Positions 19,906-27,035 of a DNA stretch of 31,771 bases are shown here, piece by piece; position 1 is the first letter of the stretch; each line of letters starts with the position of its first letter. The notes under the pieces are model-generated. The model was not told the origin of the DNA. It saw only the letters and a program-made list of their open reading frames with translations, and did not search any database. The position numbers were made by a program, and so were the translations under genes. The DNA comes from a virus: positions 1-31,771 of IMG/VR virus record IMGVR_UViG_3300042691_021530; one strand, written 5' to 3'.

Positions 19906-20805
19906 TTACGCCGACTGTGCTGGTGGTTCCGGCTCTGGACGGAACACCCGCGGTATCGCCTGCCAGGCCTTCGGACGCGTCTGGTCGACCACGCGCGGGT
20001 CGAGGTAGGAGCGCCTCGTGATCCGGTCCGTTGAGTGCCCGAGGTACGCCGTCGCGTCCAGGCCGGCGGCCGCCAGGTGGGACGCCGTCGACCGCCGCAG
20101 GGCGTGGAACTGGACGTCCCGGCCGTCGCCGAGCCCGGCCCGACGCGTGATCGTCTTCCACCGTTTGCGGAGCGCGGTATCGGACGCGAGCCACCAGAAC
20201 ACCGTCGGCCCCTCGTGGCGGCTCACGGCGTCGACGAGGTCGCAGGCCTCGGGCGACAGCTCGTAGACGCGTTCCTGCCGGCGGCCCTTCCGGATCGAAG
20301 CCGGCACCGTCAGCGTCGGCCGCGTCCAGCAGTGCCGCGGCGTCTTCAAGATCGCATTGATCCGCTCGCCGGTCTCCAGGCCGACAGCGATCAGAGCCCG
20401 GAAAAACACGCCCGCCGGGATCGGCCCGACCCATCCCCAGGAGTAATTCGCGGCGGCCGCCAGGCGGACGAGCTCGTCGGTGGTGAACGCGCGGGGCACG
20501 CCCTGCGGCACGAGCTCGGGCGCTACCGTCGGCCGCAGCTTCACGAGCCCGCGTCCCTGGGCAAGGTTCCACAGGGCGAGCAGGCCCGACCGCTCGCGGG
20601 CGACGGAGTTCGCCGACTTCTTCTCCGCCATCGCGGCCAAGAACTGGGACACGACCAGGTCGTCGAGGTCCTCGAGCACGGCGGGCCGGCCGAGCCACCG
20701 GGAGAATTGCGTGATCGCGTGCCGCAGAAGACGGACGCTTTCAGCGGAGCGGCCCCGCAGGCGGAGCGGGACGTAGATGGTCGTCAAAAACTTTTCGAGC
20801 GTCAT
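19906..20805 (-). CDS. int: Tyrosine recombinase (integrase)
   Basis: This 299-aa protein would integrate the phage by site-specific recombination. Its catalytic set is complete: Arg148 in GLETGERINAIL, Lys173 in IRKGRRQ, HALRR (H234, R237), YLGHST (H257) and the nucleophile Tyr267 in RRSYLDPR. An N-terminal SAM-like DNA-binding domain covers residues about 1-90. The start at 20805 has GAGGAGG upstream on the minus strand; the longer frame to 20952 crosses the intergenic region. It is the only supported minus-strand gene and is convergent with the gene ending at 19831. Confidence 0.95.
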   Translation of the reverse strand: MTLEKFLTTIYVPLRLRGRSAESVRLLRHAITQFSRWLGRPAVLEDLDDLVVSQFLAAMAEKKSANSVARERSGLLALWNLAQGRGLVKLRPTVAPELVPQGVPRAFTTDELVRLAAAANYSWGWVGPIPAGVFFRALIAVGLETGERINAILKTPRHCWTRPTLTVPASIRKGRRQERVYELSPEACDLVDAVSRHEGPTVFWWLASDTALRKRWKTITRRAGLGDGRDVQFHALRRSTASHLAAAGLDATAYLGHSTDRITRRSYLDPRVVDQTRPKAWQAIPRVFRPEPEPPAQSA

Positions 20806-20880
20806 GGCGTGATCCTCCTCGACATAGGGATAGGTCACGCTTCCTTGCGGGGTTGCTCCCTTCCTGGTGGAGTGCCGGTC

Positions 20881-21025
20881 GTGTCGGCTGCAACGGTTAG
20901 CCGAGACACGCCTGGTCAATGGATCGTTCGGTGGCGTCCCCGCCACTGTCAATGGTTGGAATCCTGTCCGAGGATCCCAACCCCCGGCCCGCCGGACACC
21001 GCCCGCCCCTCCGGGGGCCGGGCGG
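20881..21025. promoter_or_regulatory. Inverted-repeat cluster between int and xis-like gene (possible attP/operators)
   Basis: Four structures crowd this divergent gap. GTGTC-GGCT/AGCC-GA-GACAC lies at 20881-20909. GTGGCG-TCCC-CGCCAC (20931-20946) sits between two direct copies of GTCAATGG (20915-20922, 20948-20955). GGTTGGAATCCT/AGGATCCCAACC (20954-20965, 20971-20982) pairs with a single mismatch. A G+C stem CCGCCCG/CGGGCGG lies at 20999-21025. Position fits attP arm sites, Xis sites or operators for the divergent genes. Confidence 0.5.
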
Positions 21026-22184: not shown

Positions 22185-23165
22185 ATGGGACGTTTCACGG
22201 TACGCGACGCACAGCGGCAGCAGGCGAAGCTCCGCCTGATGGCGACGAGCCCGAGCGGCGGCGGAAAGACGTTCGGCTCGCTGCTCCTGGCGGCGGGGCT
22301 CGGCGGGAAGATCGTGCTGATCGACACGGAGCGGGGCAGCTCCGACAAGTACGACCAGCGGCCCGACCTGCCGAAGTTTCGGGTGATCCCGTTCGACCCG
22401 CCGTTCACGCCAGAGGCCTACATCGAGGCGATCGACGCCGCGGAGGCCGACGGGGCCGACGTGATCATCATCGACTCGACGAGCCACGAGTGGGACGGCC
22501 CCGGCGGCTGCCTAGAGCTCGTGGACGAGATCGCCAGGGCGAAGTTTCGCGGGAACACCTGGTCGGCCTGGTCGGAGCTGACGCCGCGACACCGGAAGTT
22601 CATAGACCGGATGCTCGCGAGCCGTTGCCACATCATCGCGACGGCCAGGTCGAAGACGGAGACGGCCCAGGTCGACGAAGGCGGCCGGAAGAAGGTCGTG
22701 AAGCTCGGGATGAAGTCGATCACCCGGGACGGCACCGAGTTCGAGTTCGACGTGGTGCTCGACATCGTCCACGACGGACATTTCGCGGTGGCGTCGAAGG
22801 ATCGGACCGGCGTCTTCTCCGGCGATCCAAAGCCGATCACGGTCGAGACGGGCCGGAAGCTGGCCGAGTGGCTGAACGGTGGAGCGCCGGCGGCTCCGAC
22901 TCCAAAGCCTGCCGTATCCGTCACGCCCCCGCCGGCCGACAGGCCGCTCGTCAGCCAGATCCCCGACTTTTCCGACAGGCCGCTCGGCGACCAGATCCGC
23001 GACTTTATCGCCGTGGCGACCAACGTCCGCACGCTCGGAAAGATCGGCAACCGGATCGACGAGCTCGCCAGCGACGGGCAGCTCACGGCCGAGGAGGCCG
23101 ACGAGCTGCGGCAGAAGATCGACAAGCGTCACGACCAGATCGACCCCGTGAAGGAGACCGCCTGA
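22185..23165 (+). CDS. Sak4-like RecA-fold ATPase (single-strand annealing recombinase candidate)
   Basis: The 326-aa protein has Walker A SPSGGGKT (22-29), an adjacent KIVLIDTERGSSDKY, and Walker B VIIIDSTSHEW (D97) with the His-Glu pair typical of phage Sak4-type and AAA_24 proteins. HIIATARSKTE follows as a sensor-like strand. After residue about 230 come a Pro-rich linker and a helical C-terminus. It would bind ATP and help strand annealing or recombination-dependent replication. The SSB-like gene directly after it fits that role. Confidence 0.82.
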   Translation: MGRFTVRDAQRQQAKLRLMATSPSGGGKTFGSLLLAAGLGGKIVLIDTERGSSDKYDQRPDLPKFRVIPFDPPFTPEAYIEAIDAAEADGADVIIIDSTSHEWDGPGGCLELVDEIARAKFRGNTWSAWSELTPRHRKFIDRMLASRCHIIATARSKTETAQVDEGGRKKVVKLGMKSITRDGTEFEFDVVLDIVHDGHFAVASKDRTGVFSGDPKPITVETGRKLAEWLNGGAPAAPTPKPAVSVTPPPADRPLVSQIPDFSDRPLGDQIRDFIAVATNVRTLGKIGNRIDELASDGQLTAEEADELRQKIDKRHDQIDPVKETA

Positions 23166-24173: not shown

Positions 24174-24488
24174 ATGGCCGCACCAATGACCACGATCGAG
24201 GCGATCGAATCGCTGCCGCTGTTCGCAGCGGCGCGGCGGTCGGACCCGGTCACGTCGCACCAGGCGGCGGCCCGTGCGCCGGTCCGCGGTCACGCCCTGC
24301 TCGTCCTCCAGGCCCTCGAGCTCGGCCCGGCCGGGCAGACGGAGATCGCCAGGCGGGCCGGGCTGACGGTCGCCGCGGTGAGCAAGCGCCTCCCCGAGCT
24401 GCGGCGGATCGGGGCGATCGAGCGGACAGGCCGGGAGGTCGAGGGCGGGGAGAGCGAGTACAGGAACACGCCGCGTCAGTCCCGTTAG
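24174..24488 (+). CDS. Winged-helix DNA-binding protein
   Basis: The 104-aa protein has AAGGGA at 24161-24166 before its ATG. Near the N-terminus is RRSDPVTSHQAAARA, a motif common to small phage winged-helix proteins. The wHTH follows: GQTEIARRAGLTVAAVSKRL (recognition helix) and ELRRIGAIERTGREVEG (wing). It probably binds DNA as a small regulator of early genes or of replication. The target is unknown. Confidence 0.75.
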   Translation: MAAPMTTIEAIESLPLFAAARRSDPVTSHQAAARAPVRGHALLVLQALELGPAGQTEIARRAGLTVAAVSKRLPELRRIGAIERTGREVEGGESEYRNTPRQSR

Positions 24489-24517
24489 GGGCGGCGGCTC
24501 GGTTGGGTTTTCTTTTT
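24470..24517 (+). terminator. Possible rho-independent terminator
   Basis: GCCGC/GCGGC (24470-24474, 24491-24495) enclosing CCC-GTTA-GGG forms a split stem, and a T-rich run (TTTTCTTTTT, 24508-24517) follows 12 nt later. The stem is short and the tract is displaced, so this is weak. The T-rich run may instead belong to the leader element of the next gene. Confidence 0.3.
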
Positions 24518-24523
24518 GAGAGG
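24505..24523 (+). repeat. T-rich leader element, copy 1
   Basis: This 19-nt element of pattern RGGTTTTCTTTYTGARAGG precedes the gene at 24531 and recurs at 26106-26124 before the initiator-like gene with 16 of 19 bases identical. Both copies end in the ribosome site. A pyrimidine-rich enhancer of translation is one reading. Confidence 0.55.
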
Positions 24524-24530
24524 TTTTTTT

Positions 24531-25232
24531 ATGGCTACCAAGTTGACCAAGTCCCAGCTCAACGGACACGCGAACCGCGTCGCCGGAGTTCTGGAGTCGA
24601 TGAGTGCGCCCGAGGCGGTTCGCGTCACGGCGCCAAACTTCAAGACGGCGGAGTTCAAGATCCTCGGCACGGCCCCCTACGTCCAGCTCGCGTTCAGCGA
24701 GAAGGCGAGGAACATCATGCGGGAGAACCAGGCCGCCGGGTCGACCGCCAAGAAGGGCAAGAAGCGCGAGGCCAAGGACTTCGAGGGGCTCTTCCTCGCG
24801 GCGCAGCACATCAGCACCGACGGGTGGAGCGGCATCCCCGCCAGCGCCTTCCGTCACGCGATGGTCGAGGCGTGCACGCTGGTCGACTTCCACAAGACGA
24901 AGGCGAAGAAGGCCGTCTTCATCGAGGCGGACGGCTACGACAAGAACGACGCCCAGCCGCTCGTCAAGCTCCTCGGCCGCAAGCCGAAGCACGTCGAGCA
25001 CACGGTCCCCAACGCGAACGGAAACCCGGACATCCGGGTCCGGGCGATGTTCGACCAGGGCTGGACGGCGATCGTCCGCGTGACGTTCGACGCCGACCTC
25101 TTCACCCTCACCGACATCACGAACCTGCTGATGCGGGCCGGGATGCAGGTGGGCGTGGGCGAGGGTCGGCCGAGCTCGAAGAATTCGATCGGCATGGGCT
25201 GGGGAACGTTCAGCATCGAAAGGAGCATCTGA
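24531..25232 (+). CDS. Conserved phage protein of unknown function with Gly-rich C-terminal loop
   Basis: The ATG at 24531 follows GAGAGG and seven T; the upstream TTG in frame is less likely. The 233-aa protein matches a pattern I know from phage recombination regions: SEKARNIMRENQAAG, GIPASAFRHAMVEACTLVDF, PDIRVRAMFDQGWTAIVRVTF, then LLMRAGMQVGVGEGRP and SIGMGWGTFSI. The closing Gly-rich loop resembles that of RAMP (Cas5/6/7-type) folds, which is only a resemblance. No function is known to me. It is coupled to the next gene, which also belongs to an unknown phage family. Confidence 0.75.
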   Translation: MATKLTKSQLNGHANRVAGVLESMSAPEAVRVTAPNFKTAEFKILGTAPYVQLAFSEKARNIMRENQAAGSTAKKGKKREAKDFEGLFLAAQHISTDGWSGIPASAFRHAMVEACTLVDFHKTKAKKAVFIEADGYDKNDAQPLVKLLGRKPKHVEHTVPNANGNPDIRVRAMFDQGWTAIVRVTFDADLFTLTDITNLLMRAGMQVGVGEGRPSSKNSIGMGWGTFSIERSI

Positions 25233-25693
25233 TGACGGAGCACAGGCAGCAGATTCAATCCGAGCTCGAGGTGATCAGGTCGCATCACGGCGGCGTGCTG
25301 CGACCGGAAGACGTCGTGAAGTTTGCCCGCAACAAGCGGACAGCTCTTCACGCGGAGTTCGAGTGGGACGACAAGAAGGCGTCGGCCGAGTATCGGCTCT
25401 GGCAGGCCAGGACGGTGATTCGTGTCGCGGTTACGGTCCTGCCGTCGCCGCATTCGAGCGACGATCCGGTCCGGGCGTACGTGTCGATCGCGAGTGATCG
25501 CGTTCGGCCAGGCGGCGGCTACCGCGCCTTGGCCGACGTCATGAGCAGCGACGAGCAGCGGGCCGAGCTGCTGCTGGAGGCGATCGGCGAGGTCAAGCGT
25601 TGGCGGCGGAAGTACGACCGGCTCCGCGAGCTGGTGCCGATCTTCCGCGCGATCGACAAGGTAGATCAGAAGCAAGAGGCTGGTGTCGCGTGA
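25232..25693 (+). CDS. Conserved phage protein of unknown function
   Basis: This 153-aa protein has AAGGAG at 25220-25225 and an ATG overlapping the previous stop. The stretch FEWDDKKASAEYRLWQART followed by VIRVAVTVL is a pattern I recall from hypothetical proteins in many phages, often beside the preceding type of gene. The C-terminal third is helical and basic (ELLLEAIGEVKRWRRKYDRL). It ends immediately before the GGCNN repeat array. A DNA-metabolism role is only a guess from location. Confidence 0.72.
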   Translation: MTEHRQQIQSELEVIRSHHGGVLRPEDVVKFARNKRTALHAEFEWDDKKASAEYRLWQARTVIRVAVTVLPSPHSSDDPVRAYVSIASDRVRPGGGYRALADVMSSDEQRAELLLEAIGEVKRWRRKYDRLRELVPIFRAIDKVDQKQEAGVA

Positions 25694-25696
25694 CAA

Positions 25697-26106
25697 GGCA
25701 GGCTTGGCAGGGCACGGCGAGGCAAGGCGTGGCAAGGCGTGGCAAGGCAAGGCAGGCAGGGCAAGTCGCGGCCTGGCTCGGCGCGGCTCGGCGTGGCAGG
25801 CGTGGCCCGGCATGGCTCGGCTCGGCAGGGCTGGGCGCGGTTTGGCAAGGCAGGCGAGGCTAGGCGGGGCGAGGCGGGGCGCGGCACGGCATGGCAGGCA
25901 AGGCGGGGCTTCGCAGGGCGTGGCCAGGCGAGGCATGGCAGGCAGGGCATGGCGTGGCGTGGCAGGCATGGCAAGGCGAGGCGAGGCTCGGCCAGGCGCG
26001 GCCAGGCGCGGCAGGAATGGCACGGCAAGGCGTGGTTAGGCGCGGTGAGGCGAGGCTCGGCAGGCAGGGCGTGGCAAGGCGCGGCAAGGCCCGGCATGGC
26101 AGGCAA
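25697..26106 (+). repeat. 84-unit GGCNN pentamer array with ten GGCA tetramers
   Basis: The entire gap between two genes parses, without remainder, into 84 units: 74 pentamers of form GGCNN and 10 tetramers, every one of them GGCA. The GGC core is intact in 78 units, while the two following bases vary (AA, GT, GA and GC are most common). The GGCA units start at 25697, 25751, 25795, 25849, 25893, 25937, 25961, 26010, 26059 and 26098, mostly 39-54 nt apart. Open frames in several phases are a by-product of the period and do not look like protein. Possible roles are given in the findings. Confidence 0.9.
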
Positions 26107-26124
26107 GGTTTTCTTTCTGAAAGG
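26106..26124 (+). repeat. T-rich leader element, copy 2
   Basis: This is the second copy of the 19-nt RGGTTTTCTTTYTGARAGG element, directly at the end of the GGCNN array and running into the AAGGAG (26121-26126) of the next gene. See copy 1 at 24505-24523. Confidence 0.55.
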
Positions 26125-26135
26125 AGTCGCAACTG

Positions 26136-27035
26136 ATGGCCGGTGAATGGATCCCCTACGACGTCTGCCTGCCGCACAAGCCCGAGGTCCTCGAGCTCGT
26201 GGACATGACGGGCCTCGAGGTCGACCAGGTGGTCGGCCGCCTGGTCCTGCTCTGGGGCTGGGCCTCGCTCAACAGCTCGGACGGGACGGCCCGGCTGTCG
26301 GTCCGGCTGCTCTGCCGGCTGTGCGGCGGGGACGAGGCTTTTTGGGAATCGGTCCAGTCGGTGGGCTGGCTCGTGATCGACGCGGAGGCGGGAACTGTGG
26401 CGATCCCCGGATGGGAGCGTCGGTTCTCCAAGACCGCGAAGAGCCGGGCGATGGAAACGGCCAGAAATCAGGCCGCAAACGCCAAAAAGGACACGTCTAC
26501 GCGCGCGGCGCGTACGTCTACGCGCGCAGCGCGTGCGCACAACGCGCGCGGCGCGTCAGAGAGAAGAGATAGAGGAGATAGAATTTCTTCTTCTTCCCCC
26601 GAGGTCGCTGCGCTCGAGGAGCCCGGCAGCGGGCCTTCCGGCCCGCCTGGCTGGGAGACGCTCCGGGAGGCCTGGAGGGCCGGCAAGGGCCGCCCGTGGG
26701 CTCTCCCGACGGCCCCGGACCGGGCAGCCGACCGGCTGGCCGAGGACGGGTGGTTCGAGAAGGCCCTGGCGGCGATCGACCGGCTCCCGGCCTGCAAGTA
26801 CTTCCGCGACCCGGTGACGCTGCCCCAGTTCGTGGCGCCGGGGTTCGTGGACAAGATCCTGGGCGGGCAGTTCGACAACGCCCGGGACGCAGCTCGAGGT
26901 CCGGCCCGGCTGGACGACCGGCCCCCGCCCCAGGAATGGCGTGGGGAGGACGCGGCCCGGTTCGAGGCGACGAAACGGGCGATGGCAGACAAGCTCCGGG
27001 CGATGGAGTCCGGGGTTGGTTCGGTTGATTCCTGA
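26136..27035 (+). CDS. Replication initiator-like protein (phage winged-helix N-terminus)
   Basis: The 299-aa protein opens EWIPYDVCLPHKPEVLELVD, then VVGRLVLLWGWASLNSSDG, AFWESVQSVGWLVID and IPGWERRFSKTAKSRA. I recognise this as the N-terminal domain of phage replication or DnaD-like proteins. A low-complexity linker (residues about 120-165) holds three iterons in its DNA. The C-terminal part (WETLREAWRAGKGRPW, KYFRDPVTLPQFV) resembles the helicase-loader-contacting end of such proteins. The role is inferred: origin binding and helicase recruitment. AAGGAG lies at 26121-26126. Confidence 0.75.
   Translation: MAGEWIPYDVCLPHKPEVLELVDMTGLEVDQVVGRLVLLWGWASLNSSDGTARLSVRLLCRLCGGDEAFWESVQSVGWLVIDAEAGTVAIPGWERRFSKTAKSRAMETARNQAANAKKDTSTRAARTSTRAARAHNARGASERRDRGDRISSSSPEVAALEEPGSGPSGPPGWETLREAWRAGKGRPWALPTAPDRAADRLAEDGWFEKALAAIDRLPACKYFRDPVTLPQFVAPGFVDKILGGQFDNARDAARGPARLDDRPPPQEWRGEDAARFEATKRAMADKLRAMESGVGSVDS
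26499..26595 (+). other. Probable replication origin: three phased iterons plus A+T-rich stretch
   Basis: Within the initiator-like gene, ACGCGCGC[G/A]GCGCGT occurs at 26499-26513, 26520-26534 and 26542-26556, spaced 21 and 22 bp, that is two helical turns. Copies 1 and 3 are identical. The next 39 bp (26557-26595) are 25/39 A+T in an otherwise G+C-rich gene, with a purine run then a pyrimidine run. This layout copies the lambda origin inside gene O. Function is inferred. Confidence 0.65.

Follow-up and report, generated by a model that had tools for sequence, protein, structure and literature searches.

VIPR (Viral Interference Programmable Repeat) is a phage-borne system that pairs the protein Vipr with guide RNAs, the vrRNAs, which consist of GGY/NN repeats (PMC13142463). 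The vrRNAs read DNA through their NN pairs, skipping one base from each pair to the next, and the characterised vrRNAs contain 9-16 repeats each (PMC13142463). In Escherichia phage SUSP1, which carries a type II system, the vrRNAs carry a conserved, structured 3' tail (PMC13142463), and the tail sequence repeats in the SUSP1 record (KT454805). "Staggered arrays" are also mentioned for VIPR, with reference to fig. S18 (PMC13142463, main text). The system, first described in 2026, is proposed as a possible evolutionary precursor of CRISPR effector complexes (PMC13142463).

The window, the whole stretch of DNA analysed here, is a viral record of 31,771 bases. It carries an intergenic array of tandem GGY units with a hypervariable NN pair, located near a vipr gene, as in VIPR. 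We hold with high confidence that this array is the predicted precursor of several vrRNAs in a phage-carried VIPR system. The NN pair of each unit would then recognise the DNA of rival phages.

The locus resembles VIPR in its RAMP-like Vipr with a G-loop, its accessory gene, and its GGY/NN repeats. It is likewise phage-borne, the array is on the vipr strand, and matching with a 1-nt skip is seen for one member of the window's clade. In contrast to the separate vrRNAs of ~100 nt in VIPR, the window has one contiguous array, its putative guides are set off by GGCA tetramers, and its core is GGC where SUSP1 has mostly GGT. Several guides in one uninterrupted array is an architecture that the window may share with the staggered arrays, as far as these are mentioned in the main text of PMC13142463.

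The SUSP1 system shares with the window a homologous Vipr (profile E=5.9e-52), an adjacent accessory gene, and intergenic GGY/NN repeats. However, the window array has no structured 3' tail, and SUSP1 vap1 and the window vap have no significant similarity. For these two reasons, the locus was not placed in the SUSP1-like type II.

Class 1 CRISPR-Cas systems (Cas7, Csm3, and Cmr RAMPs with crRNA arrays) are a more general point of comparison. The RAMP fold, predicted for the window Vipr, is common to both, as are guide modules that lie between constant elements and are gained or lost as wholes. The window differs in its five-base code with spaced base pairing and in a boundary made of one short unit, and no cas operon or CRISPR repeats were seen there. 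A CRISPR array, with repeats of about 20-40 nt, spacers, and cas genes, was rejected, as the units are all of five-base type and none of the scanned neighbours is a cas gene.

The array and its neighbouring genes

The earlier note had divided the 410 nt between two genes into 74 pentamers and 10 tetramers, with 78 of the 84 units keeping GGC, and a re-parse gave the same result. By column, the core is G in 83, G in 82, and C in 80 of the 84 units. Variation falls nearly all in the last two bases, in keeping with the selection on the GGC core that had been proposed. The chain (periodicity) score of the array is 202, compared with a best of 16 when the array was dinucleotide-shuffled 300 times and a best of 12 in 20 shuffles of the whole window. 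The intervals between tetramers (54, 44, 54, 44, 44, 24, 49, 49, and 39 nt) are also as first given; an equivalent parse has 54, 44 in place of 49, 49, since GGCA-GGAAT also cuts as GGCAG-GAAT.

The array begins directly 3' of the stop codon at 25693, fills the gap up to the ribosome-binding site of the next gene, and ends ~30 nt upstream of the ATG at 26136 (Table 1). A coding reading is ruled out: there is no ORF across its length because two of the three plus frames contain stops and the tetramers shift the frame. In the composition of the NN pairs, codon positions 1-2 fit better than the other frames, yet hardly better than a uniform composition. The array has no BLASTN match against phages, and no promoter or terminator consensus was matched at the array.

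A similar array edge, GGCAAGGTTTTC or close to it, is present at window 26102-26120 and upstream of the initiator gene in three other loci (L022, L043, and L048). These loci and the window share the edge though their Vipr proteins fall in different clades. The edge may be an end signal or a piece of the leader of the initiator gene.

Table 1. Positions of the array, its tetramers and blocks, and the genes upstream of it in the window
Feature	Position	Strand	Basis
Winged-helix (HTH) gene, just upstream of vipr	24174..24488	+	weak Pfam HTH/MarR-like matches
vipr, 233 aa, RAMP/Cas7-like predicted RNA-binding protein	24531..25232	+	profile, fold, phrog_4652
C-terminal glycine-rich loop of Vipr, AGMQVGVGEGRPSSKNSIGMGWGTF	about 25137-25211	+	
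Candidate vap (Vipr accessory protein), 153 aa	25232..25693	+	phrog_15946, clade conservation
Predicted vrRNA array, 84 GGC(NN) units with GGCA tetramers	25697..26106	+	parse and clade pattern
GGCA tetramers	25697, 25751, 25795, 25849, 25893, 25937, 25961, 26010, 26059, 26098	+	
Putative guide block 1: TT AG AC GA AA GT AA GT AA AA	25701..25750	+	stretch between tetramers
Putative guide block 2: AG AA GC CT TC GC TC GT; one core GTC	25755..25794	+	stretch between tetramers
Putative guide block 3: GT CC AT TC TC AG TG GC TT AA; one core GGT	25799..25848	+	stretch between tetramers
Putative guide block 4: GA TA GG GA GG GC AC AT	25853..25892	+	stretch between tetramers
Putative guide block 5: AA GG TT AG GT CA GA AT; one core CGC	25897..25936	+	stretch between tetramers
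Short block 6: AG AT GT GT; 4 units, perhaps a remnant	25941..25960	+	stretch between tetramers
Putative guide block 7: AT AA GA GA TC CA GC CA GC	25965..26009	+	stretch between tetramers
Putative guide block 8: AT AC AA GT TA GC GA GA TC; cores GGA, GGT, GGT once each	26014..26058	+	stretch between tetramers
Putative guide block 9: AG GT AA GC AA CC AT	26063..26097	+	stretch between tetramers
Array end GGCAA-GGTTTTC and ribosome-binding site of the next gene	26102..26135	+	

The two conserved phage genes upstream of the array, recognised earlier as such, are present and can now be identified as vipr and a candidate accessory gene. vipr is the second gene upstream. Its ORF, 24516-25232, was found with a profile from GGCNN-array contigs, and the source proteins, encoded by many contigs picked only for such arrays, have the C-terminal motif GxGxxRPxxG(R/T)F. 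The ATG at 24531 is more likely to be the start codon than the start of the ORF. The profile of the window Vipr (A1) matches PDB entry 36pp, "SUSP1 Vipr protein" (E=6.6e-42). An AlphaFold2 model has a pLDDT of 88.7, and its top Foldseek matches are Cmr, Csm3, and type VII Cas7 chains, with E-values to 5e-7. The invariant G-loop residues are present. Judged by sequence profile and predicted fold, the gene encodes a Vipr protein, a RAMP with an RRM core and a G-loop.

The candidate vap abuts vipr, and its start codon overlaps the vipr stop (TGATG). A homologue is found in 73 of 79 clade loci, usually directly downstream of vipr, so that a conserved gene lies adjacent, as VIPR accessory genes do; a DNA-related role is presumed for it. 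Homologues also lie near vipr in Cyanophage Cy-LDV1, Mycobacterium phage Saal, and Gordonia phage Pipp. The AlphaFold2 model of vap (pLDDT 87) gave no confident match in a fold search. The winged-helix gene is possibly a further member of the cassette; an HTH-like reading frame precedes vipr in a close relative (L337) too.

Elsewhere in the window, a phage integrase-like gene is encoded on the minus strand at 20035-20952 (Pfam), and the phage may therefore be temperate. Two 36-bp direct repeats lie in an AAA_24 gene at 22936-23006.

Putative guide blocks in the Vipr clade

The Vipr clade of the window, made up of L336-L414 and earlier loci, has 392 related stretches in IMG/VR. Its arrays contain 404 tetramers in 4404 units; most are GGCA, some lineages have CGCA, and about 95% end in A. 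The tetramers set off blocks of about 7-11 units with a mode of 8-9. The blocks of the window, with 4-10 units, lie at or under the range given above for characterised vrRNAs, which counts against the VIPR reading. The second level of order that the earlier note saw in the tetramers is real, and the same punctuation is found across the clade. In the unit preceding a tetramer, AC, AT, and AA are favoured; this unit holds 1.2 bits of information versus 0.15-0.57 for neighbouring units, and the separator may therefore be about nine bases in length.

Sixty-one of the 345 distinct blocks are common to several arrays. Block-by-block comparison of arrays, with vipr identities of 81-100%, indicates that relatives gain, lose, and duplicate whole blocks. 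For example, block 146 occurs twice in L377 and once in L396, and vipr is identical in both. Blocks 107, 119, and 176 reappear beside other blocks, the pairs L369/L373, L367/L388, and L382/L394 share blocks that are flanked differently, and internal changes are seen among the arrays of L403, L408, and L412.

The closest Vipr relatives of the window are L336 and L337, with 74% nucleotide identity over the 3' 600 nt. Their gene order is that of the window, i.e., vipr, vap, GGCA-punctuated array, and initiator. The array is longer and more degenerate than that of the window, and no guide is shared between them.

The tetramers probably mark guide boundaries, because blocks turn over as wholes and because a pair of adjacent blocks in one array matches a single other locus (L347 and L192, below). 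We also lean, with moderate confidence, towards GGCA itself as the guide separator in this clade: by interrupting the five-base register of the Vipr filament, it would take the place of the structured tail found on other vrRNAs. This member of VIPR, the punctuation across a clade, and the exchange of modules were not found in the main text of PMC13142463, and VIPR itself is known from one preprint.

Candidate target matches under the skip rule

Clade blocks were scanned against all loci with skip lengths of 0-4. Across these lengths, the top score came from skip 1, for block 48 of L347 on L192, where nine consecutive units match exactly and 20 of 22 positions match in all. The neighbouring block 49 matches L192 at 18 of 20 positions, 66 nt away. 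Both blocks match one L192 gene under the 1-nt skip rule alone; both matches follow the reading frame and place the skipped base at the wobble (third codon) position. The gene lies on the minus strand at about 306-1628 and encodes 440 aa with DAM-like and GNAT-like phage domains. The chance of two guides of the same array matching so close together is of the order of 1e-6, as we estimate from the density of matches. As a sequence match, this single guide pair supports for this clade both the reading of a block as a guide and the 1-nt skip rule. L192 carries its own vipr and weak arrays, and the L347 guides may represent VIPR directed against a VIPR phage. A first pooled test of the skip rule over many arrays was swamped by low-complexity windows and unmasked arrays.

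For the guides of the window, no target was found in 7 Mb of two-strand loci. Mismatch-tolerant scans, both of all loci and of the whole contigs of initiator relatives, gave nothing above control skip lengths, and the exact 1-nt-skip patterns of blocks 1, 3, 7, and 8 had no match in IMG/VR. The first 8 units of block 3 have 14 matches, about as many as chance would give; most fall in a single family of portal-like genes, outside the wobble frame. Near-matches of block 3 at 19 of 20 positions are found in this family in L477-L480, L482, and L485, again outside the wobble frame; their number is about that expected by chance, and they are probably chance matches.

Association with vipr and other readings of the array

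It is very improbable that the array acts as a G-quadruplex or structured leader RNA, whether by pausing transcription or by regulating the initiator gene. GG recurs every five bases, and the RNA of the array folds better than shuffles, if weakly so (z -2.0), but an Rfam search with the array gave no family match and most initiator relatives have no array. Such an RNA also leaves unexplained the link to vipr, the exchange of guide blocks, the gapped L347-L192 matches, and a core that is spared beside free NN pairs. The long structured RNA suggested in the earlier note is not needed, since the conserved element is the GGY/NN code; its broader option of a functional RNA lives on in the reading of the array as VIPR guide RNAs.

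The distribution of arrays bears on an iteron-like replication origin, in which the array would be bound by the initiator encoded just downstream. The array does lie directly upstream of a replication-initiation-like gene (phrog_2509), and cassettes from other Vipr clades occupy the same place beside this gene in L043, L045, L048, and L033. The site looks like a spot for the exchange of VIPR cassettes.

The comparison set was made up of 80 relatives found by this initiator gene. Three have a scored array, each together with vipr. Among the other 77, which have no scored array, vipr is present in L033 alone, and L033 holds a weak array (Fisher p=5e-5 for co-occurrence); 76 of the 80 have neither. 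In L022 and L042, the end of an array is seen at the edge of the contig or locus.

Conversely, Vipr is encoded within the stretch fetched in 85 of 120 viral contig stretches picked solely by their GGCNN pattern. Arrays accompany vipr into unrelated phages with other neighbour genes, and within vipr loci, 163 of 164 arrays share the strand of vipr. Because arrays track vipr, nearly always on its strand, the initiator gene is a mere neighbour of the array. A better candidate for an origin is a 21-bp repeat, ACGTCTACGCGCGCGGCGCGT, present in three copies within the initiator gene at window 26493-26556. Iterons, as conserved repeats tied to an initiator gene, were therefore rejected on the 76 relatives that have neither array nor vipr; an origin is extremely unlikely, and the replication link raised earlier is not supported.

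A pentamer array made by slippage and now decaying without function can be set aside almost entirely: slippage could yield tandem pentamers, tetramers, and a variable unit number, but decay would strike all five positions rather than almost only the NN pair, and would not account for one grammar in dozens of phages tied to one protein family or for the near-constant final A of the clade tetramers.

One locus on a cellular-genome contig, L225 from a Fibrobacteres MAG, combines vipr with matches to the GGCNN pattern and a gene distantly related to the window initiator gene, and is probably a provirus. Among 199 genomes from the phylum of a Planctomycetes bacterium, searched for a host, the only matches were distant ones to the initiator.

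As a VIPR guide array, the locus would work as follows. The array would be co-transcribed with vipr and vap. Each Vipr subunit would hold one GGC and present the two bases that follow. A tetramer would break the five-base register, ending one guide and starting the next. The complex would then bind matching DNA (NN, one skipped base, NN, and so on) in competing phages and block transcription there, and Vap would probably aid binding or silencing.

The window would add to VIPR an independent locus, from an uncultivated phage, that was recognised by sequence grammar alone. If GGCA is indeed the separator, a short unit lets about nine guides fit within 410 nt, and guides are exchanged as modules, much like CRISPR spacers but without known adaptation machinery. 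The guides of this clade would be readable directly between tetramers, and the clade would provide testable rules for guide boundaries, for guide turnover, and for which phages fight which.
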